Positions 12,674-58,325 of a stretch of DNA of 64,000 nt are shown piece by piece. How positions within the stretch are numbered: the first letter of the stretch is position 1; each line of letters starts with the position of its first letter. The stretch lies in contig NZ_QJTF01000004.1 in assembly GCF_003217235.1 (NCBI RefSeq), forward strand, positions 1 to 64,000. Reading direction: 5' to 3'. The position numbers and the translations under genes are program-made. This DNA comes from Paramesorhizobium leguminum (GTDB taxonomy: Bacteria > Pseudomonadota > Alphaproteobacteria > Rhizobiales > Rhizobiaceae). The notes under the pieces were generated by a model that saw only the letters and a list, made by a program, of their open reading frames with translations, had not been told where the DNA came from and did no database searches.

Positions 12674-13804
12674 ATGAAGGCTGACTATTACGAGACGCTC
12701 GGCGTACAGAAGGGTGCGGATGAAAAGGCCCTGAAAAGCGCGTTCCGCAAGCTTGCCATGCAGTTCCATCCGGACAAGAATCCCGGGGACCATGAGGCTG
12801 AACGCAAGTTCAAGGAAATCGGTGAGGCTTACGAGACGTTGAAGGACCCGCAAAAGCGGGCGGCCTATGACCGTTTCGGACATGCCGCTTTCGAGCATGG
12901 CGGCGGCGGCTTCGGCGCCCACGGTTTTGGCGCGGCCGGCGGTTTTGCCGATATTTTCGAGGATATTTTCGGCGAGATGATGGGCGGCGCGCGTCAGCGC
13001 CGTGGTTCGGGCCGCGAACGCGGCGGCGATCTTCGCTACAATATGGAAATCACGCTGGAGGAAGCTTATTCGGGCAAGACCGCGCAGATCCGGGTGCCGA
13101 CCTCCATCGTCTGCGAGGATTGTTCGGGGAACGGCGCGAAGCCCGGCACACAGCCCGCGACCTGTACGATGTGCGGCGGCGCGGGACGCGTACGCGCGGC
13201 GCAGGGATTCTTCTCGATCGAGCGGACTTGCCCGACGTGCAACGGGCGTGGCCAGATCATCAAGGACCCTTGCGGCAAATGTTCCGGCCAGGGCCGTGTC
13301 GTCCAGGAGCGCTCGCTTTCCGTCAACATACCAGCCGGAATCGAGGACGGTACACGCATCCGTCTCACCGGCGAGGGCGAGGCGGGAATGCGCGGCGGCC
13401 CAGCGGGTGATCTCTATATTTTCCTGTCCGTCAAACCGCATGAATTCTTCCAGCGCGATGGCGCCGATCTCTACTGCAAGGTACCGATCTCGATGACCAC
13501 GGCGTCGCTCGGCGGCCAGTTCGAGGTATCCACGCTCGATGGCACCCAGACCCGCGTGAAAATCCCCGAAGGCACGCAGAACGGCAAGCAGTTCCGCATG
13601 AAGGGCAAGGGAATGCCCGTCTTGCGCCAGCCGGCCATGGGCGATCTGTTCATCCAGATCGACATCGAGACCCCGCAGAACCTGACCCGCCGGCAGCGCG
13701 AGCTTCTGGAGGAATTCGAGAAAATATCCTCGAAAGAGAACAGCCCGCAATCGACAGGTTTCTTCTCCCGGATGAAGGAGTTCTTCGAGGGGATCAGCGA
13801 ATAG
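12674..13804 (+). CDS. dnaJ: Chaperone protein DnaJ (type I Hsp40)
   Basis: The 376-residue protein has all four domains of a type I DnaJ: a J domain with the HPD motif at residues 32-34, a Gly/Phe-rich linker (about 75-105), a zinc-binding region with four CxxCxGxG repeats starting near Cys147, Cys164, Cys186 and Cys200, and the C-terminal substrate-binding domain. It stimulates DnaK ATPase activity and delivers unfolded clients. It is monocistronic here, with 499 bases of AT-rich DNA upstream. A 43-bp palindrome begins at the last base of its stop codon. The separation from dnaK is unusual for this group. Confidence 0.98.
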
Positions 13805-13846
13805 CATGGTCCCAAAAAGTTGCAGACTTTTTGGATAAGGCTATGC
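13804..13846. repeat. Dispersed 43-bp palindrome, copy after dnaJ
   Basis: Outer arms GCATGGTC / GGCTATGC (degenerate here) flank the inner stem CCAAAAAGT / ACTTTTTGG around TGCAG. The first base is the last base of the dnaJ stop codon. The element lies between convergent dnaJ and udgX-like genes and could form a stem at the 3' end of either mRNA. Confidence 0.9.
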
Positions 13847-13850
13847 GGGA

Positions 13851-18196: not shown

Positions 18197-18239
18197 GCAT
18201 GGTCCCGAAAAGTTGCAGACTTTTCGGATAAGATCATGC
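18197..18239. repeat. Dispersed 43-bp palindrome, copy between dgoK and dgoA
   Basis: Inner stem CCGAAAAGT / ACTTTTCGG around TGCAG, with outer arms GCATGGTC / GATCATGC. It ends 2 bases before the dgoK stop codon (reading minus, it follows the stop at once). It could affect mRNA stability between the two cistrons. Confidence 0.9.
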
Positions 18240-18241
18240 CG

Positions 18242-19972: not shown

Positions 19973-20015
19973 GCATGATCCCAAAAAATTGCAGACTTTT
20001 TGGATAAGATCATGC
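19973..20015. repeat. Dispersed 43-bp palindrome, copy upstream of galactose operon
   Basis: Outer arms GCATGATC / GATCATGC are perfect. The inner stem is CCAAAAAAT / ACTTTTTGG with one mismatch at the loop end. It lies 35 bases upstream of the dehydrogenase start codon and creates a spurious in-frame upstream ATG for that gene. Confidence 0.92.
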
Positions 20016-20120
20016 GGCTAGTGAATATAAAATTGTTTTGCCTTCTGGCTGGCCGGTGGCTTAGCGGAATTCAGCCGAACCGTATAGTATGATGAATAAA
20101 ATTTCCTGTTATCGCGGATA

Positions 20121-20163
20121 GCATGATCCCGAAAAGTTGCAGACTTTTCGGGTAAGATCATGC
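20121..20163. repeat. Dispersed 43-bp palindrome, copy upstream of gshB
   Basis: Outer arms GCATGATC / GATCATGC are perfect and the inner stem is CCGAAAAGT / ACTTTTCGG. It lies 111 bases before the gshB start. Compared with the copy at 19973, both sides of the inner stem differ so that pairing is kept. Confidence 0.92.
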
Positions 20164-20274
20164 TCCAAACAAAGATCAGGGCGTGATGCCGTTTGATTGC
20201 ATCACGCACGGGCCCATGACAGTTTGGCGTCCTGTTTTCAACCGTAGCGAATCGCTGAGGGTATCGAGGCAATC

Positions 20275-21303: not shown

Positions 21304-22836
21304 ATGGTATCGCGGGTCAGCACCGTAGCGTTTCAGGGGATCGAGGCGGTCCCCGTCGATGTTCAGGTGATGATCGCGCCGGGCAAGATGGGCATGTCCA
21401 TCGTCGGTCTGCCCGACAAGGCGGTGGCGGAAAGCCGCGAGCGGGTGCAGGCGGCACTTCATGCCTCCGGCCTCTCCATGCCGGCCAAGAAGGTGACGAT
21501 CAATCTCGCCCCCGCCGATCTGCCCAAGGAGGGCTCCCATTACGATCTGCCGATCGCGGTTGGCCTGATGGCGGCGCTCGGCGCGCTTCCCGGCGACGCG
21601 CTGCAAGCCTTCGTGGTGCTGGGCGAACTCTCGCTGGATGGCACCACCAGCGCTGTCGCCGGCGTTCTGCCCGCCGCCATTGGCGCCAATCGCCAGGACA
21701 AGGGATTGATCTGTCCCCATGCCTGCGGGCCAGAAGCGGCGTGGGCTGGCGCCGAGATCGACATTCTGGCGCCGCGCAGCCTGATCGCGCTCGCCAACCA
21801 TTTCCGCGGCACGCAGGTTCTGTCCCGCCCCGAACCGGCGATGCGCCAGCGCGCGGATGATTTGCCCGATCTCGCCGATATCAAGGGACAGGAGACAGCG
21901 AAACGCGCGCTCGAAGTGGCGGCTGCGGGCAATCATAATTTGATTCTGGTTGGGCCGCCGGGGTCAGGCAAGTCGATGCTGGCGCAGCGCCTGCCCTCCA
22001 TCCTGCCGCCGCTTTCGCCACGCGAATTGCTGGATGTCTCGATGATCGCCTCCATTGCAGGCGAACTCGCCGGCGGTAAGCTTTCGGATCGCAGACCCTT
22101 CCGCTCACCACATCATTCGGCTTCCATGGCCGCGATGGTCGGCGGCGGTTTCAGGGCGCGGCCCGGCGAAGTATCGCTTGCCCACAATGGCGTGCTCTTC
22201 CTCGACGAATTTCCGGAGTTCACGCCGCAGGTGCTCGATTCGCTGCGCCAGCCTCTGGAAACCGGCGAATGCATGATCGCCCGTGTCAACCACCGCATCA
22301 GCTATCCCGCGCAGATACAGCTTATTGCTGCGATGAACCCATGCCGCTGCGGCATGGCGGGTGAGCCGGGGCACCGTTGCGCGCGGGGGCCACGCTGCCA
22401 GGCGGATTATCAGGCGCGCATTTCCGGGCCGCTGCTGGACCGTATCGATTTGCGCATCGAGGTTCCCGCCGTCTCCGCCGCCGATCTCATCCGCCCGTCG
22501 CAGACCGAAGCGAGCCGCGTCGTGGCGGAGCGGGTGGCGCGGGCGCGCGCGATCCAGAAGCGCCGTTACGAGGCCTTGGGACTTGCCCATGTCTCAACCA
22601 ATGCGCATTGCTCCGCCGCCCTGATAGAACAGATCGCCGCGCCAGACGCCGGCGGCTTGGCCCTGTTGCAGAATGCCAGCGAGCAGATGAAATTTTCCGC
22701 TCGCGCCTATCATCGGATTTTGAAAGTAGCACGTACGCTTGCCGATCTCGACGGAGTGGAAAAGGTCGGCCGCCTGCATCTCGCCGAGGCGATTTCCTAC
22801 CGCATGAGCGGGGACAGGACCATGGCGGTGGCTTAG
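21304..22836 (+). CDS. comM: YifB/ComM family magnesium-chelatase-like AAA+ ATPase
   Basis: The 510-residue protein has an N-terminal Lon-like S5 fold domain (about 1-180), a central AAA+ domain with Walker A GPPGSGKS, Walker B VLFLDEFPEF and sensor regions, and a C-terminal domain including the cysteine-rich AMNPCRCGMAGEPGHRC segment. ComM is known as a hexameric branch-migration helicase that helps integrate DNA during natural transformation, and it is conserved in species not known to be transformable. The gene follows gshB. An unusual repeat-rich hairpin follows its stop codon. Confidence 0.95.
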   Translation: MVSRVSTVAFQGIEAVPVDVQVMIAPGKMGMSIVGLPDKAVAESRERVQAALHASGLSMPAKKVTINLAPADLPKEGSHYDLPIAVGLMAALGALPGDALQAFVVLGELSLDGTTSAVAGVLPAAIGANRQDKGLICPHACGPEAAWAGAEIDILAPRSLIALANHFRGTQVLSRPEPAMRQRADDLPDLADIKGQETAKRALEVAAAGNHNLILVGPPGSGKSMLAQRLPSILPPLSPRELLDVSMIASIAGELAGGKLSDRRPFRSPHHSASMAAMVGGGFRARPGEVSLAHNGVLFLDEFPEFTPQVLDSLRQPLETGECMIARVNHRISYPAQIQLIAAMNPCRCGMAGEPGHRCARGPRCQADYQARISGPLLDRIDLRIEVPAVSAADLIRPSQTEASRVVAERVARARAIQKRRYEALGLAHVSTNAHCSAALIEQIAAPDAGGLALLQNASEQMKFSARAYHRILKVARTLADLDGVEKVGRLHLAEAISYRMSGDRTMAVA

Positions 22837-22844
22837 TTAAGGCA

Positions 22845-22951
22845 ATAGGGCAGTAGGGCAGTAGGGCAATATGTTTTGATTATTACCCAATTTTTCGAGC
22901 AAATCCCTTTCCAGGAATAAGCCACAAAAACATACTGCCCTACTGCCCTAT
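22845..22951. repeat. Octamer-repeat inverted element, probable shared 3' hairpin
   Basis: The left arm (22845-22877) contains AGGGCAGT twice and AGGGCAAT once, then ATGTTTT. The right arm (22927-22951) is the reverse complement with one unit fewer. About 50 bases separate the arms. The element fills the gap between the convergent comM and transglutaminase-like genes and includes the latter's stop codon. It could serve as a bidirectional 3' structure; the unit number may vary. Confidence 0.75.
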
Positions 22952-23562
22952 TTCTCCACCGAACCAACCAGCAGATTGCTCGGCGCTTCGATGCTGACCC
23001 AGCGGCCGCTATGGTTCGCCGCCTGGCGCTTGAGGTAGGAATAGCTCGTCTCGGACCAGATTTTGATCTCGTCGGCGAGGTTGTCGAGGACGAAATCGCC
23101 CCGGTCGGTGCGAACGGTCAGCACCGCATGGCCTTCACCGTCACGCTTGCGAACGACCGTGATCAGCAGGTCGGAAAGCGGAATGCCCGCCTGCGCCAGC
23201 TCGCGGCGCTTCAGAAGAACATAGTCCTCGCAATCGCCGAAGAGCGTGGGATAGGCCCAATATTCTTCCTTGCCGTAGATCTCCTTGTCGGTCAGCGGCT
23301 TGATCCGCTCATTGACTGACGCATTGATGGCCACGAGCCGCTCCCATGTAGCGCGGGTAAGCGTCAGCGGCGCGCTGTCAGCTGATCGGGTGGCGCATTC
23401 CAGCGGCAGGCGCTTGCACAATTCATAGTGGCCGATGGGCTGGGAGGTCAGCCCGCCGATGCGCATGAAATCATCGGAAGCTGCCGATGCTTTTGCGGCG
23501 AATGAAAAGAGAGCGCCAAGAATGATCGCCGCACACAACACGCCCCTCGACATACACAACAC
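22948..23562 (-). CDS. Transglutaminase-like cysteine peptidase (BTLCP family), exported
   Basis: The 204-residue protein has a signal peptide (hydrophobic residues about 8-27, cleavage near ASA). The catalytic triad of bacterial transglutaminase-like cysteine proteinases is visible as Cys111 (GDCEDY), His145 (GEGHAVLTV) and Asp160 (FVLDNL). Family members include LapG, which cleaves surface adhesins when c-di-GMP is low. No LapD-like receptor or large adhesin lies nearby, so that role is not supported here. The start may be Met4 instead of Met1. Predicted location: periplasm. Confidence 0.9.
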   Translation of the reverse strand: MLCMSRGVLCAAIILGALFSFAAKASAASDDFMRIGGLTSQPIGHYELCKRLPLECATRSADSAPLTLTRATWERLVAINASVNERIKPLTDKEIYGKEEYWAYPTLFGDCEDYVLLKRRELAQAGIPLSDLLITVVRKRDGEGHAVLTVRTDRGDFVLDNLADEIKIWSETSYSYLKRQAANHSGRWVSIEAPSNLLVGSVEK

Positions 23563-24994: not shown

Positions 24995-25227
24995 AGTGAA
25001 TGCCCCGTCTGGAGCATAGAGGAATACGAGGATATTGCAATGCACGCATTCTTGAGAGGTCCCGCCCCGCGCGGTTTAGCGCCACAATCCCGCCAATGTC
25101 CTCATGCTTGCCTTTGAGGAGTGGATCAGCCAATGCTGCAGGTAACGGAATAGCTATTGCTTTGTCCGCGCGCCACGGCACCGTCACGGTGCTCCGCTCC
25201 AAAGGCCAACACCCCAAAGGCCAGAAA

Positions 25228-26550
25228 ATGACAGGCGCTGCCACGCGCAAGGCCACTCCCGATGACATTGAGGCGCTTTTGCGCATAGAAGAGCGTTGCT
25301 TCACGGGTGACCGCATTTCGCGGCGCTCCTTTCGGGTGCTGATCCCTCGTCCTACGGCGGAAACCATCGTTGCGGAAGAAAACGGCCGTCTTATCGGCTA
25401 CGCGATGATCCTCTTTCGCAAGGGAACGGCTCTGGCCCGGCTTTACTCGCTCGCCGTCGACCCGGAAGCGAAATCTCGTGGTATAGGCGCCCTACTGCTC
25501 GAGGCCGCCGAGCAGGCTGCTTTCGATCATGACCGGCTGTTGCTGCGTCTGGAGGTTCGGGAAGACAATGCGCGCGCCATCGCGCTTTACAGACGCAAGG
25601 GCTATCGTCCGCTCGGACGTTGCCTTGACTATTATACCGACCATACCGATGCCCTGCGCTTCGAGAAAACGCTGCGTGGTGACACGCCGCTATCGGCCAG
25701 TGTGCCCTATTACGAGCAGACGACGGATTTCACCTGCGGCGCGGCCTGCCTGATGATGGCGCTCGCCGCCCATCTGCCTTCGGTCAAGCTCGATCCGGTG
25801 CTGGAGATACGTCTGTGGCGCGAGGCGACCACCGTCTACATGCAGTCGGGGCTGGGCGGCTGCGAGCCCTTCGGCCTTGCGGTCGCGGCGCATGAACATG
25901 GGCTGAAATCATCGGTTGCCGTATCCACGGGCGACATCCTGTTTCTGGAATCCGTGCGCGATCCGGAAAAGCGCATGGTGATGGAGTTGGCCCAGACGGA
26001 TTTTCGTCGCCGCGCCAAGGCTTATGGCATCGGCGTGAGCCAGCGCGGCTTCACCATGCAGGATCTGCGATCCACCCTGGAGCGCGGCGCTTGTGCCATT
26101 GTTCTCGTCAGTGGCTACCATATGTTCGGCAAGAAAGTGCCGCATTGGGTTCTCGCCCATGGCGATGACGGGCGCCATATCAAAATTCATGATCCCTGGG
26201 TGGAGGACGAGGTCGGCGAGACAGTCGCCGACGCCGCCAATGTGCCGGTTCCGTATGATATCTTCGATCGCATGGCGCGGTTCGGCAAAAGCGGCCTGCG
26301 CGCGGCGGTCTTTCTCGAGCATGATCCCGATAAAGTTGCAGACTTTTCGCACAAGATCTTGCGGCGCCAAAAGCATGATCCCGACAAAGTTGCAGACTTT
26401 TCGGACAAGATCATGCGGCGCCAAAAGCATGATCACGATAAAGTTGCAGACTTTTCGGGCAAGATCATGCGGCGCCAAAAGCATGATCCCGACAAAGTTG
26501 CAGACTTTTCGGACAAGATCATGCGGCGCCAAAAAGAGAAAAGGACCTGA
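25228..26550 (+). CDS. Bifunctional GNAT acetyltransferase / C39-like peptidase with C-terminal tandem repeats
   Basis: The 440-residue protein has two enzymatic domains. Residues about 5-148 form a GNAT fold with acetyl-CoA-binding motif SRGIGALLLEAA. Residues about 158-362 form a C39/papain-like peptidase with Cys170 (DFTCGAAC), His306 (VPHWVLAH) and Asp322 (IHDPW). Residues 365-436 are four 18-residue repeats of type HDPDKVADFSDKIMRRQK, each translated from a palindromic DNA element. The ATG at 25228 begins the GNAT domain; the upstream in-frame sequence lacks similarity. The next gene is an RLAN-type ATP-grasp ligase 2 bases downstream, a pairing known from comparative genomics and predicted to make or modify peptides. 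No substrate is known. Confidence 0.9.
   Translation: MTGAATRKATPDDIEALLRIEERCFTGDRISRRSFRVLIPRPTAETIVAEENGRLIGYAMILFRKGTALARLYSLAVDPEAKSRGIGALLLEAAEQAAFDHDRLLLRLEVREDNARAIALYRRKGYRPLGRCLDYYTDHTDALRFEKTLRGDTPLSASVPYYEQTTDFTCGAACLMMALAAHLPSVKLDPVLEIRLWREATTVYMQSGLGGCEPFGLAVAAHEHGLKSSVAVSTGDILFLESVRDPEKRMVMELAQTDFRRRAKAYGIGVSQRGFTMQDLRSTLERGACAIVLVSGYHMFGKKVPHWVLAHGDDGRHIKIHDPWVEDEVGETVADAANVPVPYDIFDRMARFGKSGLRAAVFLEHDPDKVADFSHKILRRQKHDPDKVADFSDKIMRRQKHDHDKVADFSGKIMRRQKHDPDKVADFSDKIMRRQKEKRT
26319..26534. repeat. Four tandem in-frame copies of the dispersed palindrome (4 x 54 bp)
   Basis: Units start at 26319, 26373, 26427 and 26481. Each has a 44-base palindrome (arms GCATGAT / ATCATGC, inner AAAGTTGCAGACTTT) plus the 10-base linker GGCGCCAAAA. 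The palindrome matches the 43-bp intergenic family but has one extra base (GATAAAGT against GAAAAGT), giving a 54-base period of exactly 18 codons. Units differ at a few bases. All lie within the coding region of the GNAT-C39 protein. Confidence 0.95.
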
Positions 26551-26552
26551 CG

Positions 26553-28013
26553 ATGCCGATCTGTGTTATTCTCGTCGGGCGTCTGTCCGATATCGATAAT
26601 GGCGCGACCCCCCACAAGGTCATGACCACTCGGGATTATCTCGCCCATCCGGCGCTTTTCAGCGGTCAGCGCCCGCGCATCATCAACCTGTCCCGCAACT
26701 ACGCCTATCAGAGCCGTGGCTATTACGCCTCGCTTCTGGCCGAGGCGCGCGGCCACCGGGTCATCCCTTCGGTCGAGACCATGATCGATCTCTCCGAGCG
26801 GCGGCTTTATGAAAACGCCATTCCGGAGCTGGAGGATGCGCTGAACAAGGCCGTCGCGCCGCATCCGGAACAGGCGCCTTCCACCATACGCGTCTATTTC
26901 GGCTATGCGCTCAATCACCAGATGGAGCGCTTCGGCCGGCTTCTGTTCGACTGGTTCCGCGCGCCGGCGCTGGAAGTTTCGGTGGAGCCGGGCGAATGGG
27001 TGAAAATCCGCAAGATCGCCTTCGCCAATCTGGCAAAGCTCGATGAATTGGAGAAGGCGCATTTCAACCATGCGCTCGCCCGCTATACGCAGCGCGAATG
27101 GCGGGCCGCGCCACAGAAAACGCCGGCGCGCTACAGCTTCGCCACCCTTTGCAATCCGCATGAGGCGATGCCGCCCTCGACGGTTTCGTCGCTCAAGCAC
27201 TGGGCGCGCATCGCCGGGCGCCTCGGCGTCGATGTCGAGCCGATTGGCCGGAAGGATTTGTCGCGTCTCGCCAATTACGATGCGCTGTTCATCCGCGAGA
27301 CGACGTCGATCTCCAATCACACCTATCGTTTCGCCCGCCGTGCCCAGCAGGAGGGAATGCCCGTCATAGATGATCCGGTCTCGATGATCCGCTGTACCAA
27401 CAAGGTCTACCTGAACGAGCTGATGAAGGCCAATTCCGTGCCCGTGCCGCCGACAGTGATGATTGCCGGCGACGAGGATCTGACGCGCGCCGCCGATCTA
27501 TTGGGCTTCCCCATGGTCATCAAGATCCCGGATTCCTCTTTCTCCCGCGGGGTCAAGAAGGTCGCCTCCTGTGAGGAGCTGAAGGCGCTGGCGACGGAAT
27601 GGCTTGAGGACAGCGATCTCCTGATCGCGCAGAAATACATGCCCACCAAATTCGACTGGCGCGTCGGCGTGCTCGATGGCAAGCCACTTTTCGCCTGCCA
27701 ATATCTGATGGCGAAACACCATTGGCAGATTGTCAATCACGACACCGGCGGCAAGCCGCTCGAAGGCGGCTTCCGCTCTTTCACACTCGCCGAAGCACCG
27801 CCATCCATCATAGAGACGGGTCTCAAGGCCGCGCGCTGCATAGGCAACGGCCTTTATGGCGTCGATCTCAAGGAAACCGATGACGGCGCGGTCGTCATCG
27901 AGGTGAACGACAATCCGAACCTCGAGCATGGCGTGGAGGATGCCGCAGAGAAGGACGAGGTCTGGCTCAGCCTGACACGCTGGTTCATCGATCGGCTGGA
28001 GCGGGGGAGATAG
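26553..28013 (+). CDS. RimK-like ATP-grasp ligase with RLAN N-terminal domain
   Basis: The 486-residue protein has an N-terminal alpha+beta domain of about 190 residues matching the RLAN (RimK-like ATP-grasp N-terminal) type (NLSRNYAYQSRGYYASLLAEARGH) and a C-terminal ATP-grasp domain: DPVSMIRCTNKVYLNELM, FPMVIKIPDSSFSRGVKKV (ATP lysine), and the metal site GVDLKETDDGAVVIEVNDNPNLEHG. RimK-like enzymes ligate amino acids, often glutamate, to carboxyl groups of peptides, proteins or metabolites. The substrate here is unknown. The gene starts 2 bases after the GNAT-C39 stop with AAAGGA upstream, so the two are surely one operon. Confidence 0.92.
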   Translation: MPICVILVGRLSDIDNGATPHKVMTTRDYLAHPALFSGQRPRIINLSRNYAYQSRGYYASLLAEARGHRVIPSVETMIDLSERRLYENAIPELEDALNKAVAPHPEQAPSTIRVYFGYALNHQMERFGRLLFDWFRAPALEVSVEPGEWVKIRKIAFANLAKLDELEKAHFNHALARYTQREWRAAPQKTPARYSFATLCNPHEAMPPSTVSSLKHWARIAGRLGVDVEPIGRKDLSRLANYDALFIRETTSISNHTYRFARRAQQEGMPVIDDPVSMIRCTNKVYLNELMKANSVPVPPTVMIAGDEDLTRAADLLGFPMVIKIPDSSFSRGVKKVASCEELKALATEWLEDSDLLIAQKYMPTKFDWRVGVLDGKPLFACQYLMAKHHWQIVNHDTGGKPLEGGFRSFTLAEAPPSIIETGLKAARCIGNGLYGVDLKETDDGAVVIEVNDNPNLEHGVEDAAEKDEVWLSLTRWFIDRLERGR

Positions 28014-28039
28014 TGAAATAGTGAAATAGTGGTAGGTTT

Positions 28040-28106
28040 CACTGCTCACTGCTCACTGCTCACTGCTCACTGCTCACTGCTCACTGCTCACTGCTCACTG
28101 CTCACT
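28040..28106. repeat. Heptanucleotide tandem repeat (CACTGCT, about 9.6 units)
   Basis: Nine perfect consecutive CACTGCT units (28040-28102) plus CACT follow without a mismatch. Just before is a short run of TAGTGAAA units (28013-28033) that could pair with CACT. The array lies between the convergent ligase and rlpA-like genes, 5 bases past the latter's stop. Perfect units suggest recent slippage and likely length variation between strains. It is not in a coding frame. Confidence 0.95.
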
Positions 28107-35612: not shown

Positions 35613-35655
35613 GCATGATCCCAAAAAGTTGCAGACTTTTTGGATAAGATCATGC
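35613..35655. repeat. Dispersed 43-bp palindrome, copy between pstB and phoU
   Basis: Perfect outer arms GCATGATC / GATCATGC and perfect inner stem CCAAAAAGT / ACTTTTTGG. It begins 9 bases after the pstB stop codon and separates pstSCAB from phoU-phoB. It may act as an mRNA processing or stability element within the operon. Confidence 0.93.
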
Positions 35656-35704
35656 GGCTAAAGAATAAGGCGGCTCACCCCGGACCGTTGCGGTTCGAGA
35701 TAGG

Positions 35705-58190: not shown

Positions 58191-58233
58191 GCATGGTCCC
58201 AAAAAGTTGCAGGCTTTTTGGATAAGATCATGC
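58191..58233. repeat. Dispersed 43-bp palindrome, copy after tctA
   Basis: Outer arms GCATGGTC / GATCATGC and inner stem CCAAAAAGT / GCTTTTTGG (one change next to the loop). It begins immediately after the tctA stop codon. Confidence 0.9.
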
Positions 58234-58325
58234 GGCTAAACCGACCTGATGCTTTTTCCGTCCCGCCCTTGAAAATTTCCGGCGGGGCGGGTATATAAGT
58301 TTCAAATTCTTGGTCGTCAGAACAA

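Follow-up and report, generated by a model that had tools for sequence, protein, structure and literature searches.

Four tandem copies of a dispersed palindrome form the C-terminal tail of a GNAT/C39 protein in Paramesorhizobium leguminum, probably through in-frame capture and amplification

In P. leguminum, the C-terminal 72 residues of a GNAT acetyltransferase and C39-peptidase-like (DUF3335) protein are encoded by four tandem 54-bp units, each of which is a copy of a palindrome that is otherwise dispersed between genes. The best explanation, to which we give a probability of roughly 77%, is that the palindrome was captured in frame in an ancestor, grew in tandem to four units, and has been carried since as a tolerated C-terminal tail without a required function. 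The locus lies in a 64,000-nucleotide stretch of DNA (the window) taken from contig 4 of a draft genome that comprises 67 contigs and 3.73 Mb, and its features are listed in Table 1.

Tandem Repeats Finder (TRF) reported a repeat of period 54 at 26318-26534, with 4.0 copies and a 94% match. When phased by codon, the units fill 26320-26535 in frame with an ORF that ends at 26550, and they are followed in the protein by E-KRT-stop. A preliminary description of this DNA had proposed that four such units encode the last 72 residues; the TRF result and the frame of the ORF confirm an array that is real and in frame, while the coordinates given there were about one base out of phase. Units 2 and 4 are identical except for the last base, units 1 and 3 have an ancestral GAT codon in common, and unit 3 retains, together with this codon, the FSG glycine of single-copy relatives. 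Peptides encoded by the array include VADFSDK and HDPDKVADFSDK. That the copy number reflects misassembly of a single true unit would be conceivable for a 216-bp array in a draft assembly, as the array may be longer than short reads, but units 1 and 3 carry private differences where misassembly of one unit would yield identical ones, and the reading frame is preserved across all four units; we consider such an artefact extremely improbable.

The mechanical start of the tailed ORF is at 25000, while close homologues begin with MTG..RKAT, which corresponds to 25228, and in relative L129 stop codons lie farther upstream. The true start is therefore probably 25228, judging from these alignments, which would give a 440-residue product. 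Numbered from the mechanical start at 25000, the DUF3335 match in Pfam extends to residue 439, and the insert comes after it. A RimK-like ligase gene begins 2 bp past the stop of the tailed protein and 17 bp past the array, and the pair of GNAT/C39 and ligase genes is present across the family. Beyond the ligase stop, at a distance of 26 bp, TRF also found a perfect heptanucleotide repeat (TCACTGC, 9.7 copies, 28039-28106); the matching interval is shorter in genome G002, making this a candidate variable-number repeat.

Table 1. Positions of the array, its host and neighbouring genes, and the intergenic palindrome copies in the window (hairpin energies in kcal/mol).
Feature	Position	Strand	Evidence or remark
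GNAT acetyltransferase + C39-peptidase-like (DUF3335) protein, 440 aa	25228..26550	+	Pfam PF00583, PF11814; orthologue alignment
Array unit 1	26320..26373	+	HDPDKVADFSHKILRRQK; hairpin -11.0
Array unit 2	26374..26427	+	HDPDKVADFSDKIMRRQK; hairpin -19.1
Array unit 3	26428..26481	+	HDHDKVADFSGKIMRRQK; hairpin -15.0
Array unit 4	26482..26535	+	HDPDKVADFSDKIMRRQK; hairpin -19.1
Extra base (T/C), unit position 12	26331; also 26385, 26439, 26493	+	private to locus
GAG repeating GAG of 26317-26319 across insert	26536..26538	+	possible 3-bp target duplication
Likely Shine-Dalgarno AAGGA of ligase gene, just outside array	26541..26545	+	sequence; also in relatives L128, L129
RimK-like ATP-grasp ligase, RLAN N-terminal domain	26553..28013	+	Pfam PF14401, PF08443
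Intergenic palindrome copy	13804..13847	+	
Intergenic palindrome copy	18197..18240	+	site empty in G002, G001, G005
Intergenic palindrome copy	19973..20016	+	
Intergenic palindrome copy	20121..20164	+	
Intergenic palindrome copy, single here	35613..35656	+	G002: tandem pair, period 52; G005: decayed single
Intergenic palindrome copy	58191..58234	+	

The core of the palindrome, AAAGTTGCAGACTTTTC, occurs ten times in the window when up to three mismatches are allowed, versus an expectation of 0.17, and none of 100 shuffled sequences reached ten. Searching the whole 3.73 Mb genome revealed 72 exact cores (156 with two mismatches allowed) versus none for the reversed control, and the six core copies in the window that lie outside the array are all between genes. 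This upholds the earlier proposal that each array unit is a copy of a dispersed intergenic palindrome. The consensus of the element is GAGCATGATCCCGAAAAGTTGCAGACTTTTCGGATAAGATCATGCGGC, with a left end of GAGCATGATC, or TAGAGCATGATC in many copies; a GTAG/CGTC tag is not obvious in these ends, which are only roughly mapped. It appears to be a non-autonomous element with a unit of about 54 bp, composed of a 43-44 bp imperfect palindrome and a tail of about 10 bp. The palindrome is also present in other genera of the family and is most numerous in the window genome, with 54 exact cores in G002, 17 in G001, and 0-25 in the other searched genomes. In genus g17 the core is rare, with 2-11 exact copies, and the three genomes concerned are taken as Brucella because two of them show 73-75% identity. 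The plasmid collection searched gave no match, an Rfam scan of 12000-37000 gave no family match at E 0.1, and a Y1 transposase (RAYT, PF01797) was found once each in G002 and G003 and not in the array genome, G000. A subtype of the palindrome in L013, L017, L037, L052, and L059 has another left half, accgaaggtcagcg..agca, ahead of the core, and looks like the core joined to a second element. Separately, the window holds an inverted repeat with 37 bp arms (22827-22863 / 22933-22969) and GGGCAGTA units.

The nearest named relatives of the window genome are Brucella endophytica, Phyllobacterium salinisoli, Paramesorhizobium deserti, and Mesorhizobium sp. RMAD-H1, and aligning the related loci revealed zero, one, or four units, as expected from the earlier proposal of capture followed by amplification. 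The insert is absent from Brucella, P. salinisoli, Mesorhizobium sp. RMAD-H1, and Aurantimonadaceae, where the protein ends a few residues past the conserved RAAV.LE, and from more distant families; loci with the empty site, FLE|KRTD, include L130-L139 and L171. A single in-frame copy of 57 bp is carried by each of B. endophytica and P. deserti (HDPDKVADFSGKTTRGQPR and LDPDKAADFSGSSSSKRVE, respectively) at exactly the same site as the array, both with the extra base GATCCCGATAAAG, and the window insert amounts to 57 + 3 x 54 bp. A tail shared by relatives yet bare of palindrome similarity would count against capture, and this is not what the relatives show. The preliminary description had also noted one extra base per unit, which is real and is absent from other copies of the element: in a search of 200 family genomes with a pattern allowing any base at this position, the extra base was found at this locus in the window and B. 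endophytica, and the sole other match was an A-run variant in G090. As the extra base is private to the locus, there was probably one ancestral capture first, followed later by amplification to four units in the window lineage only. GAG flanks the insert on both sides in the window and in P. deserti, while the empty site of RMAD-H1 has one GAG, and the paired GAG would fit a 3-bp target duplication. In two of the relatives' loci, L135 and L140 (Brucella cytisi and B. oryzae), the gene is out of frame at its end, owing to an A-run close before the stop that is one A shorter than in other Brucella, which may be a sequencing error.

The distribution of the insert does not follow the gene tree, which was built on 2.5 kb of coding DNA with the insert left out. 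The window pairs with B. endophytica (89/93, unstarred), and the two are joined by insert-free P. salinisoli (95/96), with insert-carrying P. deserti and insert-free Mesorhizobium sp. RMAD-H1 falling outside. A clade of the three insert carriers was rejected (AU p 0.0001), and therefore one gain with two losses, recombination between relatives, or two gains are needed. It seems unlikely that an insert with the same extra base was gained twice independently, and the two GAG copies offer a ready route by which the insert could be lost precisely.

We found 17 other close tandem pairs of the element, none of them with the extra base, in six genomes of the genus. Their periods are 54 (8 pairs), 56 (3), 53 (2), 55 (2), 52, and 51 bp, with a mode of 54. 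The suggestion that the extra base produces the 18-codon period thus fails, as 8 of the 17 pairs are exactly 54 bp without it. What the extra base does instead is to bring the first insertion to 57 bp, a multiple of three, and to select the KVADFSDKIMR reading. The window genome contains 16 close tandem pairs, three of them in the array, versus 0-2 in each of five relatives. Given these many intergenic pairs and the difference in copy number between species at 35613, the element grows in tandem as a general habit that is blind to frame and has been active in the window lineage; in the gene, such growth passed because 54 is a multiple of three. No coding-level cause is needed for this step, and the likeness of units 2 and 4 and of units 1 and 3 is what doubling of a dimer would be expected to leave.

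Taken together, these results suggest the following history. In some ancestor belonging to the genus, the element would have inserted directly behind the final conserved codon of the GNAT/C39 gene, adding 57 bp that included the private extra base and the repeated GAG, so that the frame, the stop codon, and the ribosome-binding site of the ligase gene were kept, as is seen in the relatives. In the window lineage, the 54-bp unit would then have been duplicated to four, plausibly from unit to dimer to tetramer, through slippage or unequal recombination of the kind that may underlie the same pattern at many intergenic copies. Each step could be tolerated, as multiples of 54 preserve the frame, and the product would be a 72-residue C-terminal tail, predicted with low confidence to be helical, that has no required function.

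Other in-frame copies were sought among ORFs crossing about 100 copies of the element with exact or one-mismatch cores. When the 28 other element-crossing ORFs were examined in Pfam, a known domain upstream of the element was found only in an MltA-like ORF of G001 (L108:1509-2696, minus strand); the remaining ORFs are without a domain or have the element ahead of the domain, where it is probably 5' of the true start. The MltA-like ORF terminates inside a palindrome copy (KHDPEKLQTFRTRSCG*), which supplies its last residues and stop in a different reading frame. A three-copy array of the palindrome with period 54 is present in L225 (G004:C2:2500-5500), G004 being the genome that matches the P. 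salinisoli locus, and the ORF running into this array (L093) has no gene family match in Pfam.

The array could instead act in the mRNA, with hairpins modulating the stability or translation of the ligase gene 17 bp downstream; an influence on translation had been raised in the preliminary description. The array region folds better than its shuffles (z -7.0), the ligase Shine-Dalgarno sequence lies directly after the array, and its predicted accessibility, 0.27, is lower in the window sequence than in the relatives. Against this, insert-free L131 has nearly the same predicted accessibility (0.32; start codon 0.02), predictions for the ligase start vary among relatives independently of the insert, and translation of the array to within 2 bp of the ligase ATG means that ribosomes would unfold the hairpins. 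Folding of the relatives' loci revealed a single-copy hairpin of only -9.3 in B. endophytica, one of -22.0 with a different right arm in P. deserti, and none elsewhere; by locus, the hairpin is weak in L128 and absent in L130, L131, and Brucella. As the hairpins are thus weak, rebuilt, or absent in relatives, a conserved role in ligase translation is not borne out and a conserved RNA switch is unlikely; we regard any action of the array through the mRNA as very doubtful.

One feature of the insert resists a neutral reading. Of its first 30 bases, B. endophytica departs from the array consensus at 1 and P. deserti at 3, versus 10 and 18 of the last 27 bases (Fisher p 0.002 and 1e-5), while synonymous sites between these lineages differ by 46-48% (pS 0.46-0.48). 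Elsewhere in the genome, the two arms of the element vary to about the same extent, and the asymmetry therefore seems peculiar to the GNAT/C39 gene; pure neutrality does not predict a conserved first half. The tail may therefore have been put to use, with the peptide, above all HDPDKVADFS, aiding the GNAT/C39 protein, for example as a helical docking segment, and selection keeping it and favouring more copies. This would agree with the conservation of the left half in three lineages, with a reading frame that is open in all three carriers, and with the AlphaFold2 (AF2) model, in which the tail is a helix. However, the pLDDT of this helix is about 48-64, versus mostly about 90 for the core, and two close relatives are entirely without the insert. 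Differences among the units, by hand count about four nonsynonymous and one synonymous, are as expected without constraint and show no excess of synonymous changes. In addition, the intergenic copy at 35613 is equally conserved between the window and G002, so a conserved element does not necessarily imply a conserved peptide. We therefore consider use of the tail unlikely. A bolder version, in which a selfish palindrome has turned into real protein, its HDPDKVADFS half under peptide selection since capture, the other half able to decay in relatives with one copy, and a useful helical module multiplied by tandem growth, strikes us as improbable. The 72-residue tail is probably merely tolerated.

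One small clade thus displays the steps by which a protein can grow from repeat DNA, namely an empty site, one in-frame copy, and four, and the old question of whether palindromes feed new protein or are merely tolerated becomes testable with one gene and its relatives. In-frame palindromic elements have been reviewed as recurrent (PMC10969869), and an established case is that of the Rickettsia palindromic elements (RPE), which stand in frame in protein genes (Ogata et al. 2000, reviewed in PMC2229807 and PMC10969869). Like RPE, the present palindrome is dispersed outside genes (72 exact cores) and also stands in frame in a conserved protein gene, one with insert-free homologues, whose product tolerates it; it differs from the RPE families proper, which are 105-146 bp long and interrupt many genes of Rickettsia, in its 54-bp unit, its Rhizobiales host, and its single clear tandem capture, which lies at the very C-terminal end of the protein. 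The preliminary description had seen tandem amplification as a departure from known in-frame elements, but it is not new in kind: in-frame REPs occur singly, doubled, or clustered, also at C termini, in several bacteria, and clustered REPs of Thauera and R. conorii code for 43-82 residues (PMC3733652). The array resembles these GTAG/CGTC REP clusters in placing repeats in frame within an ORF and differs in that its genome lacks a RAYT. Coxiella QMITE2, a small dispersed palindromic element that gives EnhC a strain-variable in-frame C-terminal extension of 33 residues (PMC5896051), is also alike, although it is a different element in single copy, and the accessible part of that account mentions no tandem growth. 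The related Brucella has Bru-RS1 and Bru-RS2, repeats that are palindromic, lie between genes, and measure 103-106 bp (Halling and Bricker 1994; PMC10800456, PMC2267715); we liken them to the present element by description only, and no in-frame use of them is described in PMC10800456 or PMC2267715. PARCEL, a 25-residue motif of Mollicutes and other microbes with many of its occurrences in membrane proteins, likewise has tandem palindromic DNA units encoding a protein repeat (PMC2996958); here the unit encodes 18 residues, the tail has no Pfam match, and an intergenic parent element is present, whereas none is described in the portion of the PARCEL report available to us. Our literature search, thin in subscription journals, returned no paper on an in-frame palindrome in Rhizobiales. 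The kind of event is thus already known, and the present case is a new and clear example of it, unusually well documented in its steps.
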